A stretch of DNA of 64,000 bases from Prosthecomicrobium sp. N25 (GTDB lineage Bacteria > Pseudomonadota > Alphaproteobacteria > Rhizobiales > Ancalomicrobiaceae), in contig NZ_JBBCAT010000001.1 in NCBI RefSeq assembly GCF_037203705.1, positions 2,515,418-2,579,417 on the forward strand, read 5' to 3'. Within the stretch, counting starts at the first letter, position 1, and every line of letters starts with the position of its first letter. The notes under the pieces are model-generated. The model worked only from the letters and a program-made list of their open reading frames with translations, made no database searches and was not told the DNA's origin. Shown here piece by piece: positions 40,011-52,397 of the stretch. The position numbers and the translations under genes are program-made.

Positions 40011-41204
40011 TTAGAAGGCCGTCGCCGGCGGGGCCTTTTCCCACTGGTATCCGGATCGGGCCATTTCGTAGCCCTTCTGGAAGAGCGCGTTCATGTAGAC
40101 CTTGTCGAAGGCTGACGAGCTCTGGACGTTGAAATCCGGGGGAATGTAGGTCAGGTTGTAGTCGACGCCGTCCCGCTTGGCGATCATGTAGATCTTGTAG
40201 AGATCGCCGACGCCCTGCGTCTTGATCAGCGTATCGATCGAGCGGGAGGCGATCGGCAGAAGCTTTGCTTCGATGGCCTTGAACTGCGGGTCGACCTTGC
40301 TGTTTCGAATGATGTAGGCGCGCCGGTTCGGCTTCCAGCCGATGGCCCGGTCGATCATCGTGGGCGAGTAACCGGGCGGATAGAGGAACACCTGCCTCGT
40401 CACCCCGCCATCCACGTGCAGTTCGACGAAGGGCTTGCCGTCGGCCTGCACGTTGACTTCGACCGGCGGGAACGCGCCGGGTATGGCTGCCGAGGCCAGG
40501 ATGATCTGCCGGGTGAGCGCCAGCGCGTCGGTGCGTCCGCTGTTGGCGATGGCCCCGATGTCCCAGATCACCGACTTCTGCGCGTCGAGATTGGTGGTGC
40601 CGATGAGCAGCATGCGACCGTTTCGATGGGCGACCGCGATCTCCTCCAGCATCTCCTGCGTCATGTACTTGGCGATGAGCCTCTGCAGCGGCTCGGTGCT
40701 CACCAGCCCCGCGCTCTGCCCGAGTATGGCCGACAGCACCTGGCGCTGCGCCACGTCATCCGTACTGATGGTGGTATAGGCCTCCCGCAGTTGCTGATCG
40801 TATTTCGGTCCCAGGAAGGCCAAGGGCGCGATCATGGCGCCGGTGCTGATTCCCGAGACGGCGTCGAACTGCGGCCGCGTCCCGCGCTCGGACCACCCGA
40901 CCAGGAAGCCGGCCCCGAAGGCGCCGTCGCTGCCGCCGCCCGAGAGGGACAGGAAGTTTATGTCGAACCTCTTGCCCCGGACGTTCTGGTTGGCGAACTT
41001 GTGCTTGAGATGCTGGATCCGCGCCAGCGCCAGCCTCTCCAGCGAGTCCGCATCGTCGGAGTAGTACCGGATCGTGCCGAAATCCGCGACGCTGGCGCGC
41101 TCGACGAGCGGCTCCGGGACCGGATCCCGCATGTCGAGGGTCGGCAGGCAACCCGCGAGCAGCACCGACAGGGAAACCGAGGCGAGGTTCCGGATACTCT
41201 TCAC
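40011..41204 (-). CDS. Patatin-like phospholipase lipoprotein
   Basis: A 397-residue lipoprotein with signal peptide and lipobox LLAGC (lipidated Cys19). The patatin fold shows the oxyanion loop GGGSDGAFG (about 89-97), the nucleophile Ser120 in GISTG, and the DGG catalytic Asp motif in ELHVDGGVTRQ. It should hydrolyse acyl groups from membrane lipids, at the envelope. The start is GTG 41204 with GGGAGGG upstream. It follows an unknown exported protein by 18 bases on the same strand, suggesting a two-gene secreted unit. Confidence 0.87.
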   Translation of the reverse strand: MKSIRNLASVSLSVLLAGCLPTLDMRDPVPEPLVERASVADFGTIRYYSDDADSLERLALARIQHLKHKFANQNVRGKRFDINFLSLSGGGSDGAFGAGFLVGWSERGTRPQFDAVSGISTGAMIAPLAFLGPKYDQQLREAYTTISTDDVAQRQVLSAILGQSAGLVSTEPLQRLIAKYMTQEMLEEIAVAHRNGRMLLIGTTNLDAQKSVIWDIGAIANSGRTDALALTRQIILASAAIPGAFPPVEVNVQADGKPFVELHVDGGVTRQVFLYPPGYSPTMIDRAIGWKPNRRAYIIRNSKVDPQFKAIEAKLLPIASRSIDTLIKTQGVGDLYKIYMIAKRDGVDYNLTYIPPDFNVQSSSAFDKVYMNALFQKGYEMARSGYQWEKAPPATAF

Positions 41205-43269: not shown

Positions 43270-44469
43270 CTAACCGGCAGGTTCGGCGGAGAGCGGCAGG
43301 CCCCGCTGCACCAGTCTGAACGTCGCGAGGGACGCTGCCGCGAAGAGCATCATGGCGATAGCGACGAACAACGGGCCCTCGCCGTCTCCGGACCAGTCCC
43401 TGACCCAGCCGGCGACCGGGATCAGGCCGGCCATTCCCGCGTAGTAGCACGAGAAGAACACACCCATTCCGGCCGCTCGGTTCTCCGGCTTCAGCCCTTC
43501 GGAGGGCAGGGCCATGATGGCTCCCGCCGGCAGGCCGCTCGCCAGGCCGAACAGGGCAAAGACCGGCAGCGCCGGAGCCCCCTTGGCGAGCAGCACGACG
43601 AGGACGGCCATGATCGCGAATCCGCTCAGCATGAACAGGTTCGGCGAGCCGGACCTCTGGGCGAGCAGTCCGCTCAAGGGCACCGAGAGGGCGCAGAGCC
43701 ACATGGCCAGGCTGGTGATCGGGCCCGCTTCGGAAAGCGCGAGGCCGCGATCGCGCAACAGGCTGGGCCCGTAGGTCATCAGCAGGATGAAGCCGACGTT
43801 GTAGAAGGTCCAGACGAGCCCTGCGGCGATCGTCAGCAGCCATTCCCGCCGGCTGAGCCGGAACCGCAGGACCGCCGGCCCCCCCGCCGCGGCGGCACCC
43901 GGTGCGGAGCGGTAGATGGCCGCCAGTCCCACGAGCGCGCAGAGGGCGAACGCGACCGGCACCAGCAGGGCGAGACCGACGCCCTCCCGGCCTGCCACGC
44001 CTGGAAGGATGACGAGCGACAGCCCAATCCCGATCGGCCAACTGTTCACGAAGAGAGCCATCGCGGCGGTGATCGCGTGTCCGGCGAACCAGTCGATGAG
44101 CATCTTCGTCAGCACGACCGTCAGGAGCACGCCGCCGATCCCGCTCACCGCCCGGGCCAGCATGGCCGTGCCGAAGCTCGGGAGCGCCGCCAGCGCGATC
44201 CCGCCCAGGATCATCAGGGTCAGCCCGACGATCGCGACCGGCTTGTCGCCGAAGCGTTGGCCGAGGAGGCCGCCGGGCAGGGCGATCACCACGCCCGGAA
44301 GCATGAACAAGCCGACCAGCGTCCCCAGGAGGGCGAAGTCGATCGCGTAGCGCTCGGTCAGCAGCGGGGCGACGGCCCCGATCGACTGGAACTGGAACGC
44401 CATGGCCGTCCTGGCCAGAAACAGGACGGCGAGCATCAGCCACCGGTTACCAGTCGCATCCGACATCAT
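43270..44469 (-). CDS. Major facilitator superfamily transporter
   Basis: A 399-residue protein with about twelve membrane helices. The loop between helices 2 and 3 reads GGLLGQRFGDKPVAIVGL, the standard MFS signature. The early sequence LMLAVLFLARTAMAFQFQSI and late LVQRGLPL bracket the fold. It resembles the CynX/NNP-type group only loosely, so cargo cannot be assigned. The start is one of two adjacent ATGs (44469/44466), with only a weak ribosome site; the open frame upstream is not coding. It stands apart from the protease gene by 173 bases. Confidence 0.88.
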   Translation of the reverse strand: MMSDATGNRWLMLAVLFLARTAMAFQFQSIGAVAPLLTERYAIDFALLGTLVGLFMLPGVVIALPGGLLGQRFGDKPVAIVGLTLMILGGIALAALPSFGTAMLARAVSGIGGVLLTVVLTKMLIDWFAGHAITAAMALFVNSWPIGIGLSLVILPGVAGREGVGLALLVPVAFALCALVGLAAIYRSAPGAAAAGGPAVLRFRLSRREWLLTIAAGLVWTFYNVGFILLMTYGPSLLRDRGLALSEAGPITSLAMWLCALSVPLSGLLAQRSGSPNLFMLSGFAIMAVLVVLLAKGAPALPVFALFGLASGLPAGAIMALPSEGLKPENRAAGMGVFFSCYYAGMAGLIPVAGWVRDWSGDGEGPLFVAIAMMLFAAASLATFRLVQRGLPLSAEPAG

Positions 44470-44642
44470 GGCCGCTCTGCCATACACAGGATCCCGCGCA
44501 AGAATATCAGCCCCTGGCCACCGCGAACATGGGATGGGCCTCGTCTGGACGCCGAAGGCCCGCTCGGGTCGGATGGCGAACACGACAGGACATCGGCCGC
44601 TCGCCCCGGCACGGCCGTGCTCGATCCGCCCGGCCGCGCGAC

Positions 44643-46595
44643 CTAGCGACGGACTCGCGAGGGACGGGGCAGGGGGGTCACGAAGCCGCCGGCGCCGGCC
44701 CGATAGGGAGGGAACAAGACGATCCCGTTCGTCCGTGCCTCGTCTTGCACGGCGGCTCGATCGGCGGGCAAGCCCTTCGAGAGCCGGTAACACACCCAGC
44801 CGGTCACGACCGGCGCGGCGACGCTGGTGCCGTTCAGCGCGACGATCGAGCCGGAATGGGTGCCCCCGGCCAGGACGCCGGACAGAACCTTGGAATCGTC
44901 GCAGACCGCGGCAGCGTCGGGCGTGCGTGACGAGCTGCCGGCCGAGTAGGGGGCGATGAGCCTTTCCCTGTCGACATAGCCTCCGATGACCGAAGGGATC
45001 CGTCCCGTCCCGATGCCGTTGATCGAGCCCATCCGCTGCACCGGAGAGGTGTTGTCCTCCTCCTCAGGCCTGCCGGCCTCGTCGAACGGACGGTAGTCGG
45101 TCTCGTCGAAATAGGACTGGCGGCCCAACTGCGGGTACCCGAAGGGGGCGACGTCGCGCGCCACGTAGGCGTCGAGGCACAGCTCGGTGTCGGACTCGTT
45201 CTCGATGTGGATCGACCAGAGCCCCGCGGGCGCGATCGTCCCGGTGAGATCGGTCCGGGCCGTCGGGGCCACCACGAAGGTGAAGCAGCCGCGGCCGACA
45301 TGCTTGTAGGCGGTCTCGGCGAGGTCCTCGCCATTCACGGTCCAGGGCAGGGATTGTCCGTCAACGCGCGACACCGGACCGGCCTCGCCGCCGTGGGGGC
45401 CTTTCAGGGTCGCGGTGCAGGGGGCGTCCTCGGCCGCGCCGGGCGGAAGCCAGACCTCGGCCAGGCTCGGGGTCCGATCGTCGGGCTGGATGCGCCAGCC
45501 GAGCGTCGCGCGGCTCGAGGGCGGGACGACGAGCCGGGCGCGCAGGCGTTCCAGGTAGCTGTTGCCGGCACCGACGACGATCTCGCAGGGGGCGCCGGTC
45601 ACTGCCGTCCAGGCGGGCAGGAACAGGTCGATGAAGCGCTCCAGGATGTGCCCGCCGTCATGGGGGCCGTTGGTGATGCCGTAGCTGAGGTTGACGGCGA
45701 CCGGCAGCGGGGCGGACTCGAGCCGGCGGGCGACGTCGAGGCTGCGCATCAGGATGTAGACCAGGCCTTCGATCGCCTGGGCGCTGAAGTCCGCGGTCGG
45801 CTGCAACCCCGTGGTGGCGATGGGCAGCTGGACGCCGATCACCCGCACGTCGGCGGCGCCAAAGGCGAGCGCCGAGCTGAGGGCGACGTCGAGGACGTGG
45901 GTCCCGTGGGCGCGGCGCAGCCGGACGGCCTTGTGGCCCCTGGGGACGTCGGGCCGCGTGACCCCGGCCTTGAGATAGAGCTCGTCCTCGCCGCGCAAGC
46001 CGGCCGGCCACGGCGTGGGGGCGGCCGTCCTGAGTGCGTCGATCTTGGTCTTCGACAGTTCGCGGCCATGCGTGAACGGGCCGAAGATCCCGACCGGGCC
46101 CGGCGGCGGGCCGTCCTGCATCCAGAAGGCTTCGACGCGGGTGCCGTCCGCCGCGGTGAACCGGTCGTGCGCGAAGGCGATGCCGTCGTCGATGATGCCC
46201 AGCACCACGGTGCCGGCTCGCCGCGTCGCCGCCTTCGGCAGCCCGAGCCAGTGCTCCTCCCGGACCGGGAGGGGTTCGTAGGACCCCGTCGCGAGCGGCG
46301 GCGAGATCACCAGCTCGTCGACGTTGGCGGAGAGTTCCTCGACCACCTCGGCCGCCGGGCGACCGCCGACGAGGTGTCCGGTGACGATCGGGAACGTCTC
46401 GAAGCGTTTGTCCAGGGAGGGCAGAAGATGCGTGTAGACCCGCCCGATCGACACCAGGTGGCGGAGCCGAGTTGCGGCGCTCTCGATGCTCTCGTCCTTC
46501 GAGATGGCCAGCGCAACCGGGATCGGGGCGGGATCGACCCCGCGCGGAAAGAAGTCGAACCGGCCGGGTCCCAGGTTCCACAGGGCGACGGACAT
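44643..46595 (-). CDS. Leaderless subtilisin-like (S8) serine protease
   Basis: A 650-residue protease with a complete S8 triad: Asp in VLGIIDDGIA (136/137), His230 in AHGTHVLDVA, oxyanion Asn345 in GAGNS, and Ser591 in LNGTSVAAPVVTGW. The 125 residues before the catalytic domain and an inserted beta-rich region (about 360-480) are unusual. There is no signal peptide or transmembrane segment, so it acts in the cytoplasm or needs another exit route. It is the last gene of a three-gene operon after a GGI-repeat haloperoxidase-like protein and a nucleotide cyclase. A role in processing one of these partners is possible. Confidence 0.87.
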   Translation of the reverse strand: MSVALWNLGPGRFDFFPRGVDPAPIPVALAISKDESIESAATRLRHLVSIGRVYTHLLPSLDKRFETFPIVTGHLVGGRPAAEVVEELSANVDELVISPPLATGSYEPLPVREEHWLGLPKAATRRAGTVVLGIIDDGIAFAHDRFTAADGTRVEAFWMQDGPPPGPVGIFGPFTHGRELSKTKIDALRTAAPTPWPAGLRGEDELYLKAGVTRPDVPRGHKAVRLRRAHGTHVLDVALSSALAFGAADVRVIGVQLPIATTGLQPTADFSAQAIEGLVYILMRSLDVARRLESAPLPVAVNLSYGITNGPHDGGHILERFIDLFLPAWTAVTGAPCEIVVGAGNSYLERLRARLVVPPSSRATLGWRIQPDDRTPSLAEVWLPPGAAEDAPCTATLKGPHGGEAGPVSRVDGQSLPWTVNGEDLAETAYKHVGRGCFTFVVAPTARTDLTGTIAPAGLWSIHIENESDTELCLDAYVARDVAPFGYPQLGRQSYFDETDYRPFDEAGRPEEEDNTSPVQRMGSINGIGTGRIPSVIGGYVDRERLIAPYSAGSSSRTPDAAAVCDDSKVLSGVLAGGTHSGSIVALNGTSVAAPVVTGWVCYRLSKGLPADRAAVQDEARTNGIVLFPPYRAGAGGFVTPLPRPSRVRR

Positions 46596-46627
46596 GGGCT
46601 ATCCTTTCCGACAGGGCCTCTGGGCGT

Positions 46628-47809
46628 TCAAAGCCACTCGTGCAAGGCTTTCTGCCAAAGAAGGTTCAATATTTCGGAGGGATGTCCGAGTGCGGATGCT
46701 TTCGAGGTCGCGACGAACGCACCCGGCTTGACGTCATGCGTGGCGAAGTCGAAATGCTCGTGCCACAGGAAGTCGAGGCCGGGTTTGTTCGTATCGAACT
46801 TGGCGCCGTCGAACTCGATATCCTGGAAGACGTCGTTGCTGTTCTGGCTGGTGCAGCGCGTGACCAGGTAGTTGCCCAGGGTGAGGCCGAGGACGGCGCC
46901 CGCGATGCTGTCGACGGGGAAGTGGACGCCGGCCACCGTGCGGTTGATGGCGACGCGCGCGGCGAGCCGGAGCAATTGGGCGAGGCAGAGGTCCCCCTCG
47001 TAGACCGGATGGCCCGCCGCGCGGAGCAGGCGCCAGAGGAGGAGGGAGGCCGTGAAGGCCTCGGTGGCGTGGCCGCTCGGCAGGCTGCCGTGGGCCGGGG
47101 TCTGGATGACGGGCTGGACCTGCACGGAGTAGTCGACCGGCCGCCGGCACGCCAGGGCATGCTTCAGACGCATATGCACGAAGTTGGCGAGCCTGAGCCC
47201 GGCGGAGAGGAGCTCGAGCGTGTGCAGGTTCCGCTCGGGATCGAGCCGGACGATGGAGGAGAGGAAGACGAAGCTGTCGGTCAGTTGCGCCAGGATCTCG
47301 GCGGCGCGATCGGCCCGCAGGTCGGCGTAGTCGACGACGAGCGAGAGCTGGGCGATGAAGGTCGACTGCGGCGGGCGCACGAAGGCGGCGAGCCGGCGAT
47401 ACGCCATGGCGGAGGAGTCGAGGTGACGGACCTCCATCCTGCCGCCGCCCAGGTCGGCGAAGCCGAGGCGGGAGAAGATCTCGAAATCGATGACGTGGGC
47501 GCGCACCCAGGGCGCCCAGGACCAGATGTTGCCGGCCGCGCCGGGCGCCAGCGCCGCCGGGGCTGTGGCGGCGGTCGGCGCCTGGACCGTGCCCACGATG
47601 CCGTCGCGCGTGTGGATCAGGGCCTCGAGGGCGAGCGGGGTGTCGGCCGCGACGCCGCCGATGCCGCCGATCCCGCCGATCCCGCCGATCCCGCCGATTC
47701 CCCCGATGCCGCCGATGCCGCCGATCCCGCCGATGCCTCCGATCCCGCCGATGCCTCCAATGCCGCCGATGCCTCCGGTCGGCCCGGCGTAAGGCAGAAA
47801 GGTCGTCAT
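46628..47809 (-). CDS. Soluble vanadium-haloperoxidase/PAP2-family protein with N-terminal GGI repeats
   Basis: A 393-residue protein. The C-terminal part has the full PAP2/haloperoxidase active site: Lys216-x6-Arg223-Pro (KHALACRRP), P244-S-G-H247, and Arg290-x5-His296-x3-Asp300. There is no signal peptide or clear run of membrane helices, so it is of the soluble haloperoxidase-like kind. It could be a halide oxidant-forming enzyme with vanadate, or a phosphatase. The N-terminus, residues 12-50, is thirteen exact GGI tripeptides and then GGV. It lies 22 bases after the cyclase gene and 32 before the protease gene. A repeat of this type is not part of the family. Confidence 0.85.
   Translation of the reverse strand: MTTFLPYAGPTGGIGGIGGIGGIGGIGGIGGIGGIGGIGGIGGIGGIGGIGGVAADTPLALEALIHTRDGIVGTVQAPTAATAPAALAPGAAGNIWSWAPWVRAHVIDFEIFSRLGFADLGGGRMEVRHLDSSAMAYRRLAAFVRPPQSTFIAQLSLVVDYADLRADRAAEILAQLTDSFVFLSSIVRLDPERNLHTLELLSAGLRLANFVHMRLKHALACRRPVDYSVQVQPVIQTPAHGSLPSGHATEAFTASLLLWRLLRAAGHPVYEGDLCLAQLLRLAARVAINRTVAGVHFPVDSIAGAVLGLTLGNYLVTRCTSQNSNDVFQDIEFDGAKFDTNKPGLDFLWHEHFDFATHDVKPGAFVATSKASALGHPSEILNLLWQKALHEWL
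47651..47776. repeat. In-frame 9-bp minisatellite coding (GGI)13-GGV
   Basis: Fourteen consecutive nine-base units, with plus-strand core GATCCCGCC or GATGCCGCC and a few single-base variants (TTCCCC, GCCTCC, one AAT), encode Gly-Gly-Ile on the minus strand. Changes at third positions keep the peptide identical except in the last unit (GGV), so protein sequence seems to be selected. Copy number could vary by slipped-strand replication without breaking the frame. Confidence 0.92.
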
Positions 47810-47831
47810 GTGTGGCCCCCCGTCGTTTGGG

Positions 47832-49607
47832 TTAATCCGGGATTCCCATGTCCCTGAAGATGGCGGCCCACTCCCTCCCGATCGGGAAGTCGTAGCTCGG
47901 CGACCGCTCGCACCACCCGGAGACCGTGAAGCCGGGATCGAGCGTCAGCAGGGCCGCGCAGGTCGACCGTGCCTCGTTCCTGAGGCCCAGTTGCCACTGG
48001 GCCACCGCCATGGCCCGCAGCGTGGAGGTGTGGGTCCGGTTCGCCCGGAACGACCGGGTCGCCGCATGAAGGGCCCGCTCGTATTGGCGCGCCGACAGGT
48101 AGGCCGTGGCCGAGAGCGAGTCGTAGAAGAAGCGGTGGGGGTCGAGCGGCGACAGCTTCAGCGCTCTCTGGGTGCAGCGGATCGCTTCGCCGCCCTCTCC
48201 CTTGAAGGCATGCAGGGTCCCCTTGAGGAGCCAGGCGAGCGGCTCGCTCGGGTTCGACTCGAGCGCCCGCTCGTAGCGGTCGAGCCCCGCATCCATGCGC
48301 TTGAGAAGGTTCGTCTGGACGAAGCCGTCGATGGCGAGGGCGAGCGGGCACTCCGGATCCGTGTTGAGGGCGCGCCGGGTGCACTGGAGCGCGAGCGCGC
48401 TGTCCTCGCTCGGGTCCTCCGACCAGCCCTGCTGGACGCGCAGGACGTGCCACTTGGCGAGCCAGGCGAGCGGAATGGCTTCGCGCGGTGCACGCTCCAC
48501 GAGCGCGTGGAGCAGCTTCTCCGCCTCCTCGAAATCACTGTGGGACAGGCGATGCATCAGTCCCACCGCGGCGATGAGCAGCGATGAACTCTCCAGCGTG
48601 GGGATCGCGCGGCTGCGCACGCGCTTCAGCTCCTGTGCCAGGATCGTCCGCGTCACCCACTCGACCATCGAGCCGACGAGGTCCCGCCGTCGCCCGGACA
48701 GGCCCTCGCCCCTGGCGTGGAATTGCTCGGTGCTCAGGACCGACCCGGTCGCGGTCTCGAAGAGTTCCAGATCGACCGTCACCGTGCGCCCGGACTGGCG
48801 GCAGCGGCCCGAGATGACGTAGTTCGCGTCCAGCTTCCGGCCGATCGAATGGGCACTCATCCGGCGATCGCGAAACACGGTCGTGGTGAGGCGCGAGACG
48901 ACGTGCAGGTCGGTGGCATGCGACAGGGCGCGGATCAGCTCCTCGGCGACCACTTCCCCGAACAGATCCGGCGTGCCCTCGTCCTCGCGGGTCGACAGGG
49001 GCACCACGGCCACGAGAGGAAAGAGATCCGCCTCCTCGACGCGTGGCTCCAGGACGGGATGGCTGCCTACGGGGCGGACCACGAAGGCATGGACCGGGCC
49101 CTTGATGTGTTTCAGGAAGCAATGCCCCAGGTCCTCGACCTCCGCGTCGAGGCTCGCCGTCAGCTGGGCCCGGACGGGCGCGGAGACGACGATCTCCGAG
49201 GGGCTGGCGAGCGAGGCCAGCCGGGAGGCCCGGTTGACGCCCCGCCCCAGGAGATCGCAGTCCGCGACGTAGACGGCCGCCTTCTCGATCCCGACCCGCA
49301 GATGCAGCCGCGCCCCGGGCTCGACGGTCTCGTTCGCCTCGGCGGTGTGGCGGACGATGTCGAAGCCGGCCATCACGGCCGACCGGGCATCCTGGAACTC
49401 GGCGATGAAGCCGTCCCCGGTGCTCTTGACGAGCCGTCCCTGGAACCTGGGCATCACCTCCCGGCCGACGACGTCCATCAACGACACGAGGCGGCGGACG
49501 AACTCATCCTCGTCGTCGTCCATGAGGCGCACGGACTCGACGACGTCGGCGACCAGAACAATCCGGTCGACCCGCTCCAGAGCATTCGTTTGAGTGCTCG
49601 AAACCAT
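47832..49607 (-). CDS. Class III nucleotide cyclase with TolB-like and TPR domains
   Basis: A 591-residue cytoplasmic signalling protein. Residues 12-150 are a class III adenylate/guanylate cyclase domain with both metal aspartates (Asp21 in LVADVVES and Asp65 in STGDGFIAEF) and the transition-state Asn125/Arg129 (GRGVNRASRL). The middle (about 195-340) is a TolB/FlgO-like domain (VAEELIRALSHATDLHVVSR). The remainder is TPR-like helices. ATG 49607 is preferred to a TTG 11 codons earlier. It heads the operon with the haloperoxidase-like and S8 protease genes; cAMP production responding to an unknown protein input is the likely role. Confidence 0.88.
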   Translation of the reverse strand: MVSSTQTNALERVDRIVLVADVVESVRLMDDDEDEFVRRLVSLMDVVGREVMPRFQGRLVKSTGDGFIAEFQDARSAVMAGFDIVRHTAEANETVEPGARLHLRVGIEKAAVYVADCDLLGRGVNRASRLASLASPSEIVVSAPVRAQLTASLDAEVEDLGHCFLKHIKGPVHAFVVRPVGSHPVLEPRVEEADLFPLVAVVPLSTREDEGTPDLFGEVVAEELIRALSHATDLHVVSRLTTTVFRDRRMSAHSIGRKLDANYVISGRCRQSGRTVTVDLELFETATGSVLSTEQFHARGEGLSGRRRDLVGSMVEWVTRTILAQELKRVRSRAIPTLESSSLLIAAVGLMHRLSHSDFEEAEKLLHALVERAPREAIPLAWLAKWHVLRVQQGWSEDPSEDSALALQCTRRALNTDPECPLALAIDGFVQTNLLKRMDAGLDRYERALESNPSEPLAWLLKGTLHAFKGEGGEAIRCTQRALKLSPLDPHRFFYDSLSATAYLSARQYERALHAATRSFRANRTHTSTLRAMAVAQWQLGLRNEARSTCAALLTLDPGFTVSGWCERSPSYDFPIGREWAAIFRDMGIPD

Positions 49608-50423: not shown

Positions 50424-52397
50424 TCATTCGCAGTAGCGGCGGCCTGAGAAGGTGAAGCAGGACTGCGAGGGCGCGTTGGACCCGATCGTCCGCTTCGGCG
50501 GTATCTTCTCGGCCACCAGCGGGCGCTTGACGGTCCTGGCCTCGCACTCCCCCTTCGGCGTCAGGCGCTGACCGGACGGACAGGTCTTGGCGACGCAGGC
50601 TCCGTCGCGTTCGATCTCGCGCGCCCCACAGGTCGGCGGGCAGACCCGTCCGGATCGGGAAACGAGGTCGTCGAGAACGCCCGGGTCCGGGTCGCCGGTT
50701 GCCGGGCTCCGCAGGGCCTTTCGGTACTTCTCGAGCGCGCGTGCGACGCTGGGCGCGTCCACATCCCCGTCACCGCTTCCCGCCATGCACCCGAGCCGCC
50801 TGAGCTCCCGGGCGACTTTGATTCGCAGGTCGGCGATGCCGGCCGGTGCCAGTGCCCGATTCTGGTCCGGCGCAGCCGGGATCGGGTCCAGGCTGGCGAC
50901 GTTCGTCCCGAGACCCTCGCGATCCTGCGCAACCGGGGGCGCTCCGGACGGCCGCTCGGAACCGGCACTCCCGCGCCCAATCTCCGCGGGCTGCGGAGGA
51001 TCCGGCGTAGCCGACCCCGTCGCAGCATCGGGCGGCTCGGCTCGGGCGGGTTCGGCCGCGGGCGGCGGGTCTGTCGAAGGCGGGGCAGACTCTGTAACGC
51101 CGCCGATCGGCGGTGCGACGGGCGGAGGATCCGGAACGTTTGGGACCGCATCGGCGGCGAGGTTCGAGACCGATTTGTGCTCCTCCGCCGGCACGAGCGG
51201 ACCGGCAACCTCGTGCTCCCGCGGTTCCAGGGCACCCTGCCGGACGACAGCGGATGGATCGACGGGCGTGGCGGCAAGGGATAGCCGGATCTTGATCGAG
51301 TCCATCAAGTCCTGGCCGTGGCCCGAGAGCACGAACCCGGACGCCAGGGATGCCGCGACCACGACGGCTGCGGCCATGAACCGTCTCCGGGAGCCTGCGG
51401 TGACGGGAGGCTCCTGGGCGCGCGGCTGTGCTCCCCAGCCAAGTCGATCCCTCAGCTCCGCGACGCTTTGCGGGCGGGCCCTCTCGTCGAGCGACAGGGC
51501 CGCGCCGATCTCCTTCAGAAAGCGCACGGAATAATGGTGTCGGAGCGCCGGATCCTCCGCCAGCGACGACAGGGGGTCGCGCATGTCGGCCTCGAAGCGG
51601 CGGCCGGCCAGGCGGTGGATGGCCCCCATCGGGCTCTCCCCCGTCACGATGCGATAGAGAATGGCGCCGATCGAATAGATGTCGCTCGCCGCACCCAGCG
51701 CCGTCCTTCCGTCATTCGAGATGATCTCGGGCGGGGAATAGCCGTCGGAGTGCAGGAGAACCGAGGTGTCGTTGCTGGCGCCGAGACCCGTTCGGCTGGC
51801 CCCGAAGTCGATCACGACCGGTGTGCCGTCGGCCTTCACGAGGATGTTCTGGGGCTTCAGATCGCGATGCAATTCGTCGACGGAGTGCAGATACCCTATG
51901 GCATCGAGAACGCCGTCCATGACGGCCTGGATGTCCTCTTCCCGGGGAGGGAGGCCGGTCGCCGCCCGCTTGTCGTCGAACCAGGTCGCGAGCGTGACGC
52001 CCTCGACATAGTCCATGACGAAATAGGGAACGTCGTTCTGCACCAGGAATTCACGGCCTCGGACCACGTTGGGATGCCCGAGGGTGTGGATGATCTTCAT
52101 CGCCTCGGATTCGAAGCGGGCCCGGAGTTTCTCGCGGATCTCCCGGTTGAGGACGGTGCCCTCCGACGCCGGCACGACCCTGAAGTCAGCCGTGCGCCGG
52201 GAATCCTGGGCGATGAAGAATTCCTTGATGGCGACCTGCTCGCCGCTGTCGCCCACCCGAGCCGCGTAGGTGATCCCGAAGCCGCCCTGGCCGAGGACAT
52301 GCTCGACCCGATAGGGACCGATCTCGAAGCCGACCGGCAGAAAATGCGCATTCTGCGCAAAGGTCGTGACTTCGGACTTATCGCGTTTGCGAGCCAC
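50424..52397 (-). CDS. Membrane-anchored Ser/Thr protein kinase with Cys-rich tail
   Basis: A 657-residue Hanks-type kinase. The kinase domain (about 28-300) is complete: glycine loop GQGGFG (36-41), Lys58, HRD 177-179 in LHRDLKPQN, and DFG 197-199. A single membrane helix near 345-362 is followed by a proline-rich linker and an outside domain of about 140 residues with a regular cysteine pattern (VCPPTCG, GACVAKTCPSGQRL, SCFTFSGRRYCE). The start is GTG 52397. The last part could sense envelope state. It lies next to the cyclase operon but on a separate transcript; a direct link is not shown. Confidence 0.88.
   Translation of the reverse strand: MARKRDKSEVTTFAQNAHFLPVGFEIGPYRVEHVLGQGGFGITYAARVGDSGEQVAIKEFFIAQDSRRTADFRVVPASEGTVLNREIREKLRARFESEAMKIIHTLGHPNVVRGREFLVQNDVPYFVMDYVEGVTLATWFDDKRAATGLPPREEDIQAVMDGVLDAIGYLHSVDELHRDLKPQNILVKADGTPVVIDFGASRTGLGASNDTSVLLHSDGYSPPEIISNDGRTALGAASDIYSIGAILYRIVTGESPMGAIHRLAGRRFEADMRDPLSSLAEDPALRHHYSVRFLKEIGAALSLDERARPQSVAELRDRLGWGAQPRAQEPPVTAGSRRRFMAAAVVVAASLASGFVLSGHGQDLMDSIKIRLSLAATPVDPSAVVRQGALEPREHEVAGPLVPAEEHKSVSNLAADAVPNVPDPPPVAPPIGGVTESAPPSTDPPPAAEPARAEPPDAATGSATPDPPQPAEIGRGSAGSERPSGAPPVAQDREGLGTNVASLDPIPAAPDQNRALAPAGIADLRIKVARELRRLGCMAGSGDGDVDAPSVARALEKYRKALRSPATGDPDPGVLDDLVSRSGRVCPPTCGAREIERDGACVAKTCPSGQRLTPKGECEARTVKRPLVAEKIPPKRTIGSNAPSQSCFTFSGRRYCE

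Follow-up and report, generated by a model that had tools for sequence, protein, structure and literature searches.

Why would an enzyme with a conserved active site carry a string of identical tripeptides at its head, next to the gene for a protease? This question is raised by a stretch of the genome of Prosthecomicrobium sp. N25 (64,000 nucleotides of contig NZ_JBBCAT010000001.1, positions 2,515,418 to 2,579,417; hereafter the window), in which three genes on the minus strand adjoin. In the order of transcription, they encode a cyclase-TolB-TPR regulator (47832..49607, 591 aa), a PAP2 enzyme with a repeat tail (46628..47809, 393 aa), and an S8 protease (44643..46595, 650 aa), with gaps of 22 bases (47810..47831) and 32 bases (46596..46627) between them. 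The original prediction, made from the sequence alone, had described three intact, adjacent genes with these gaps, and the description holds; its interval of 46628-49607 omits the protease, which its text places correctly. The three genes form a conserved unit, and we tentatively propose that the protease cuts the tail and thereby controls the enzyme.

Conservation and distribution

The source genome (5.95 Mb, 99.28% complete) contains a single match each for the PAP2 enzyme and the protease at E 0.001. In a set of 61 genomes, comprising the source genome and 60 relatives (threshold 1e-10), the protease was present in four and the enzyme in five, and the 14 other genomes that share the genus and family of the source matched neither. 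In the other three protease-bearing genomes (G054, G042, and G050), the enzyme adjoins the protease and the regulator comes next, divergent in G042.

A scan with a five-sequence enzyme profile, in which 84,980 species were represented by a single genome each, gave at least 508 confirmed relatives. We examined the best 80 of these, which are therefore the nearest relatives by choice; they come from Microvirga, Bradyrhizobium, Rhizobium, Tardiphaga, Rhodobacteraceae, Reyranella, Paraburkholderia, Caballeronia, Polaromonas, a Chromatiales symbiont, and others. All 80 have a same-strand S8 gene 3' of the enzyme, and all 78 with upstream sequence have a TolB/TPR regulator upstream, codirectional in 73 and divergent in five. 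Based on first-start open reading frames (ORFs), the median gap is 32 bases between the regulator and PAP2 genes (73 codirectional relatives) and 17.5 bases between the PAP2 and protease genes (80 relatives, 76 of them with 60 bases or fewer). The S8 gene of L024 (L024:7092-9148) is split over two frames in a draft contig, reflecting either decay or a sequencing error.

The association also appears in wider genome samples. In an even draw of 398 genomes from the phylum (threshold 1e-12), the enzyme profile matched 31 genomes, some of them through ordinary PAP2 genes, and the protease profile matched 20 places in 18 genomes. Eighteen of these places adjoin the enzyme, two of them convergently; the other two are S8 protease relatives with no PAP2 match nearby (L150:7593-9443 and L151:7662-10214). 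Viewed from the enzyme (21 places, E up to 2e-35), 18 places have an S8 gene and two have an A4/G1 protease gene (G048 and G193), while no protease was found at the remaining one (G139, locus L145). Three of the nine weak PAP2 matches in this draw were inspected (L156-L158) and lacked regulator, protease, and repeat. In a class sample of 385 genomes that overlaps the phylum draw (threshold 1e-20), the PAP2 profile matched 13 genomes; eight of ten protease places adjoin the enzyme (the exceptions being G609 and G532), and the 15 enzyme places comprise eight with S8, five with A4/G1, and two with neither. The co-occurrence check suggested along with the original prediction thus finds the homologues together (80/80, 18/20, and 8/10) and not mostly apart.

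Bearers of the unit include various soil and marine bacteria. The unit also occurs on plasmids, 11 of 35 such records being predicted conjugative. In the annotated plasmid records examined, each gene carries a separate name (PAP2 phosphatase; S8 peptidase; and for the regulator hypothetical, TPR, SARP or winged-helix protein), which is why the unit appears to have been overlooked.

A uniform repeat with changing letters

The array in the window consists of 13 perfect Gly-Gly-Ile units near the N-terminus of the enzyme (residues 12-50; 47660..47776, minus strand). The original prediction recognized this tripeptide tail, and we correct its position to the N-terminal end. At the DNA level, the repeat has a period of 9 over 47646-47777; the 13 units are encoded by five different DNA units that vary at third codon positions alone. 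Residues 1-53 of the modeled protein have a predicted local distance difference test score (pLDDT) below 50, and the array region is accordingly predicted to be disordered.

We assembled 126 loci: two are cut by contig ends, three are ordinary PAP2 genes without the module, one (L155) has an irregular array of Gly-Leu type, and 120 have a called unit. All module members examined whose start is complete have an array; it is irregular in L057 and L155, and some called arrays fall into separate blocks (L057, L033, and others). A short-repeat score of at least 12 in the first 120 residues was reached by 77 of 1138 ORFs (largest non-overlapping, at least 100 aa, 110 loci). Because 74 of these 77 are module PAP2 genes, the N-terminal repeat is not a chance feature; two of the others are antisense to PAP2 arrays and one is unrelated (L082:11287).

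The 120 loci hold 54 distinct units, among them GGI, NSF, DAR, NK, GGES, and GGNWF. Forty-eight units have three residues, three have four, and one each has two, five, and six. Fifteen of the 54 are free of Gly, so that a tail glycine-rich by nature, as had been assumed, is not supported, and Cys or Pro occurs in none. A collagen-like or polyglycine-II zipper was dropped as a general explanation since SSY, DTS, DAR, QTQ, NK, and GGNWF lack a common Gly or three-residue period.

The copies are alike as peptides and diverse as DNA. Across 82 arrays, the copies diverge by a mean of 0.032 at the first codon position, 0.014 at the second, and 0.632 at the third; the first two values are low partly by construction, because the search for arrays relied on peptide periodicity and penalized mismatches, which trimmed the run ends. 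Seventy of the 82 peptide runs are perfect, and all 82 arrays use more than one DNA unit. Silent-site heterozygosity is 0.640 in the array and 0.628 in the remainder of the operon (higher in the array in 51/82, p 0.09), and identical neighboring DNA units number 44 of 699, against 43.7 after shuffling; selection for DNA diversity within the array is therefore unsupported. Because the silent sites are as diverse as the remaining operon, we consider the arrays to be old and the peptide copies to be kept alike by selection.

Units nevertheless change between close relatives. Two Microvirga loci (L018 and L026) with 91% enzyme-domain identity carry 12 GGV and 12 GGI units, respectively. Eight Phaeobacter plasmid loci retain NSF in 5, 6 or 7 copies. 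The Paracoccus locus L217 (L217:4291-5358) has a mixed array, NAH x3 followed by TAQ x4, which looks like a unit switch in progress. A Bosea plasmid carries a second PAP2 relative (L225:3614-4686), split in two annotated genes, in which no repeat was seen and which has no annotated regulator or protease adjoining.

The PAP2 enzyme

The central gene matches PF01569 in Pfam (1.2e-16; 61.1 bits against a cut-off of 27.2) and has the superfamily motifs KxxxxxxRP, PSGH, and RxxxxxHxxxD. The original prediction held that all three active sites of the unit are intact, and the key residues are indeed conserved among cyclase, PAP2, and S8 homologs. In the PAP2 enzyme, K216, R223, H247, R290, H296, and D300 are kept in 63/63 homologs, and S245 and G246 in 62/63.

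The enzyme had been called haloperoxidase-like, a name that the structural comparison does not favor. Foldseek with a model built from 63 sequences (mean pLDDT 85.2) ranked class A acid phosphatases first (3.6e-6), ahead of an iodoperoxidase (2.1e-3) and a chloroperoxidase (0.14). We therefore set aside the vanadium haloperoxidase identity; the enzyme resembles class A acid phosphatases (PhoN, PhoC; PDB 7f17, 1d2t), with which it shares the PAP2 motifs and the predicted core fold, more closely than the vanadium-dependent haloperoxidases of the same superfamily (PDB 4usz, 3w36). Its Lys, Arg, Ser-Gly-His, Arg, and His set is presumably equivalent to the haloperoxidase set. It differs from class A acid phosphatases in size. 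Their single domain has about 210-220 residues (211-237 in the matched chains), whereas the ordered domain here spans about 340 residues (54-393) in the predicted structure, with extra N- and C-terminal elements relative to the usual length of about 215. It also differs in its repeat tail and in the hydrophobic leader, which was not seen by eye.

The protease and its replacements

The protease of the window matches Peptidase_S8 in Pfam only at 0.0033, under the curated cut-off, and its S8 identity rests on the catalytic triad, the structural model, and the match to CspB. D136, H230, and the oxyanion N345 are kept in 60/60 homologs, and S591 in 59/60. The AlphaFold2 model (60 sequences; pLDDT 88.7, predicted template modeling score 0.93) suggests a propeptide-like region at about residues 1-100, as read from the order of helices and strands, and a catalytic domain with a beta-sandwich insertion at about residues 352-478. 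This predicted combination of a propeptide-like N-terminus and a jellyroll-like insertion in the catalytic domain is that of the CspB-type fold, and the best Foldseek match of the model is CspB (4i0w; E 2.7e-25, TM 0.71 by target). No hydrophobic leader was seen by eye.

The slot 3' of the enzyme stays occupied by a protease while the family changes. Among the 120 loci with a unit, 110 have the CspB-like S8, five have an A4/G1 protease (L014, Pfam 3.3e-23, and L144, L195, L196, and L197, found with their own profile), two have a different S8 (L148 and L149; Pfam 4e-20 and 3e-21), and three have none by profile (L145, L147, and L198). In L147, an S8-like open frame with motifs recognized by eye adjoins the enzyme. 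L155 has a convergent gene of 983 aa (L155:8741-11692) beside its Gly-Leu repeat PAP2 gene; this gene has an HEFGH motif and no Pfam or NCBIfam match, and perhaps represents a new metalloprotease family.

Protease type and unit letters may also be linked. Asn occurs in the unit in all five A4/G1 loci and, among the 110 with S8, in 11 (Fisher test by loci, p 2.8e-5; by distinct units, p 0.011; both ignore relatedness); as the five loci may be one clade, the test is only suggestive.

The regulator

The regulator has a class III nucleotide cyclase domain (about residues 17-177), followed by a TolB/FlgO-like region and TPRs in the C-terminal half (Pfam: Guanylate_cyc 3.4e-7 plus TPR). In an alignment of 46 regulators that match the cyclase profile strongly, D21 and D65 are kept in 45, R129 in 46, N125 in 41, and K61 in 37 (Arg in eight). 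The supposition that the cyclase is an obligate part of the unit is not supported. Over the 126 loci, the head gives a strong cyclase match in 71 and a weak one in six; another 28 have a SARP-like match, and the remaining 21 have no match of either kind, a group that includes loci whose regulator sequence is absent from the set. Five regulators without a strong cyclase match were searched against Pfam: those of L036, L054, L062, and L091 have the Trans_reg_C winged helix, L036 despite a weak cyclase-profile match, and that of L146 has a match below the cut-off. The head of the regulator is thus exchangeable, being either a cyclase or a winged helix. The regulator of L023 (L023:4002-5823) is split over two frames in a draft contig by decay or by sequencing error. 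The source genome has ten additional regulator matches, the long ones at 25-28% identity; neither a repeat gene nor a sister unit was present in their ten neighborhoods.

In domain order, the protein is similar to CadC/HilA- and SARP-type TolB/TPR regulators and to rhizobial cyclase-TolB-TPR proteins. Unlike them, it is tied to one enzyme-protease pair and exchanges its head between loci.

A rhizobial variant with putative modifying enzymes

A relative of the L148 enzyme is found in 82 plasmid records, 62 of them from Rhizobium. Five Rhizobium loci were read (L219-L223), from R. johnstonii 3841 (pRL12), three R. leguminosarum, and Rhizobium sp. SU303. All have an Asn-Lys repeat within the N-terminal part of the enzyme and, 3' of the protease, a gene annotated as a HEXXH peptide-modification protein. 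In R. johnstonii 3841, this gene encodes a TIGR04267 aKG-HExxH-type peptide beta-hydroxylase (1.7e-21), and a ThiF-like E1 gene follows; the pair stands directly after the unit (L219:8003-10389). L148 has the same pair (L148:3844-6070), with a weaker hydroxylase match below the cut-off (2.2e-9). No HEXXH modifying gene was present in the stretches read at four other NK/NR-type loci (L224, L226-L228). Judging from gene content, the rhizobial unit with these genes is a possible unrecognized RiPP-like cluster (RiPP, ribosomally synthesized and post-translationally modified peptide). In view of the hydroxylase in this variant, the repeat may itself be a product or a modified substrate.

Other genes near the unit

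In the window, the unit is flanked by minus-strand genes assigned by Pfam to a Ser/Thr protein kinase (50424-52397; Pkinase 1.8e-36), an MFS transporter (43270-44793), and a patatin-like phospholipase (40011-41204). There is no indication that these neighbors belong to the three-gene unit.

Discussion

We propose a regulated protease-substrate pair. The PAP2 enzyme, soluble and acid-phosphatase-like, would carry its N-terminal repeat as a disordered tail, and the neighboring protease would cut this tail at one or many of the identical units, switching the enzyme on or off, or releasing it. The TolB/TPR protein may sense a trigger and relay the signal, either by a cyclic nucleotide (cyclase head) or through transcription (winged-helix head). 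Changes in the unit would be tolerated provided that its copies match one another and remain acceptable to the protease. We infer the cleavage of the tail and what it does to the enzyme, as well as the trigger and the enzyme substrate. The original prediction had already suggested that the protease acts on the tail. This is still the best mechanism, with a probability that we place somewhat short of even, and the points in its favor are indirect: the conserved slot, the CspB-like fold, and the Asn-containing units of the A4/G1 loci. A tail that serves as protease target is the most economical reading because the slot remains a protease while the family changes, and because the fold is known from zymogen activation.

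Several points weigh against this proposal. The units have no evident common cleavage motif (GGI, DAR, SSY, QTQ, NAE), and as an inhibitor a disordered tail makes a weak candidate. No adjoining protease was found in L145, the only such neighbor in L198 is an M24-like gene recognized by eye and possibly there by chance, and the protease gene is convergent rather than codirectional in L152, L153, L214, and L216. The protease is also not singled out as the reader of the unit. In pairwise tests whose null ignores the relatedness of the loci, unit sharing correlates positively with similarity in the regulator regions (partial r 0.10-0.21), in the PAP2 N-half (0.15), and in the N-terminal region of S8, which evolves fast (0.23). 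The S8 catalytic domain gives no such signal (0.00; -0.17 in cyclase-type loci). On gene trees of 108 loci, the unit changes 55 times on the PAP2 tree, 55 on the S8 tree, and 54 on the regulator tree, and no gene stands out. The trees thus did not uphold the pairwise signals.

The repeat might instead be a multicopy peptide precursor, from which the protease frees many identical peptides, modified post-translationally in some lineages and sensed by the TPR regulator; the output would be a signal or a RiPP-like product, and the PAP2 enzyme a carrier or co-effector. That a single unit combines a repeated peptide with a protease and a TPR regulator is consistent with this view, as is the modification gene after the protease in the five Rhizobium loci with Asn-Lys arrays. 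Enzymes of the aKG-HExxH type hydroxylate consecutive Gln residues and, in a variant peptide, also acted on Asn (PMC12636437). At matched PAP2 identity, pairs of loci with the same unit have more similar regulators, although this link was not upheld on the trees. In addition, the modifying genes are missing from the L224 and L226-L228 stretches, and a Pfam scan detected no peptide-modifying family among the seven neighbors of the window unit. RiPP clusters with such a hydroxylase likewise combine repeated residues, a protease, and, as in some rhizobia here, a modifying enzyme; in the unit, however, the repeat belongs to a full enzyme with a conserved active site, which is unusual for a precursor, and a modifying gene was not annotated or detected at most loci read. 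In RRNPP-type peptide signaling, a propeptide with a signal sequence is secreted and sensed by a TPR protein. The regulator here has TPRs by Pfam, and no secretion signal was seen on the repeat protein by eye. We regard the precursor role as unlikely.

A role as a homotypic assembly or localization tag, in which a multivalent tail clusters the enzyme and the protease dissolves the clusters, has a similarly low probability. Uniform short repeats, predicted to be disordered in the window protein, would suit it, and many units combine small residues with one other residue and none contains Cys or Pro. The charged, aromatic, Gln-containing, and small-only units nevertheless have no common chemistry, and unit lengths of 2 to 6 argue against a single helix or strand geometry.

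No more and no less doubtful is the idea of a peptide password specific to the strain, with an arbitrary short word repeated at the head of the enzyme. The copies of this word would be kept alike by selection, cut or read by the co-inherited protease, sensed by the TPR regulator, and hydroxylated on Asn in some rhizobia. If so, the identity of the word would decide which partner proteins or kin cells operate the enzyme.

Less probable again is a conflict system directed against phages or rivals, with the PAP2 enzyme as effector and a hypervariable tail caught in an arms race. The sporadic distribution (13/385 class and 31/398 phylum genomes, and 0/14 of the same genus and family), the occurrence on plasmids, some predicted conjugative, and the turnover of units among close relatives fit such a system. 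Defence had also been suggested as a use in the original prediction; PADLOC gave only weak, generic matches (PycC, PDC-M71B, subtilase, IetS) for the three window proteins and 60 S8 homologs, and the enzyme had no match in 50,697 phage records. Finally, a neutral or slippage-born low-complexity stretch without function, to which the varying copy number of the 9-base unit among Phaeobacter strains might point, is very improbable in view of the codon-position test (on arrays found by peptide repeat), the diverse silent sites beside 70/82 perfect peptide runs, and the presence of an array in all examined module members that have a complete start.

For the protease-substrate pair that we favor, the closest known counterpart is CspB/CspBA and pro-SleC of Clostridia. 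A paper on the activation of SleC (PMC3567191) presents CspB, a protease with a part in hydrolase activation, as a subtilase that keeps its inhibitory prodomain and contains a jellyroll insertion. The protease of the unit is likewise a subtilase with a predicted propeptide-like N-terminal fold and beta-sandwich insertion, and CspB is its best match among solved structures. In contrast, the unit occurs in Proteobacteria and includes a regulator gene, the putative target of its protease is a repeat-tailed PAP2 enzyme and not a cortex hydrolase, and that protease can belong to another family. Among the Pfam, NCBIfam, and PADLOC models that matched the scanned proteins, none represents the unit or the repeat, and narrow full-text searches of the open literature, with subscription papers outside their scope, found no description of it. 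The unit looks like an undescribed control system built of parts from known families; we know of it in culturable bacteria such as Rhizobium johnstonii 3841 and Phaeobacter inhibens.

A demand for a uniform short repeat whose letters change freely between species is rare among proteins. Here, the repeat stands at one defined place, on an enzyme with a conserved active site and beside an exchangeable protease. The unit therefore offers a clean system for asking why uniform repeats are selected, how their units are replaced, and whether proteases read low-complexity tails.

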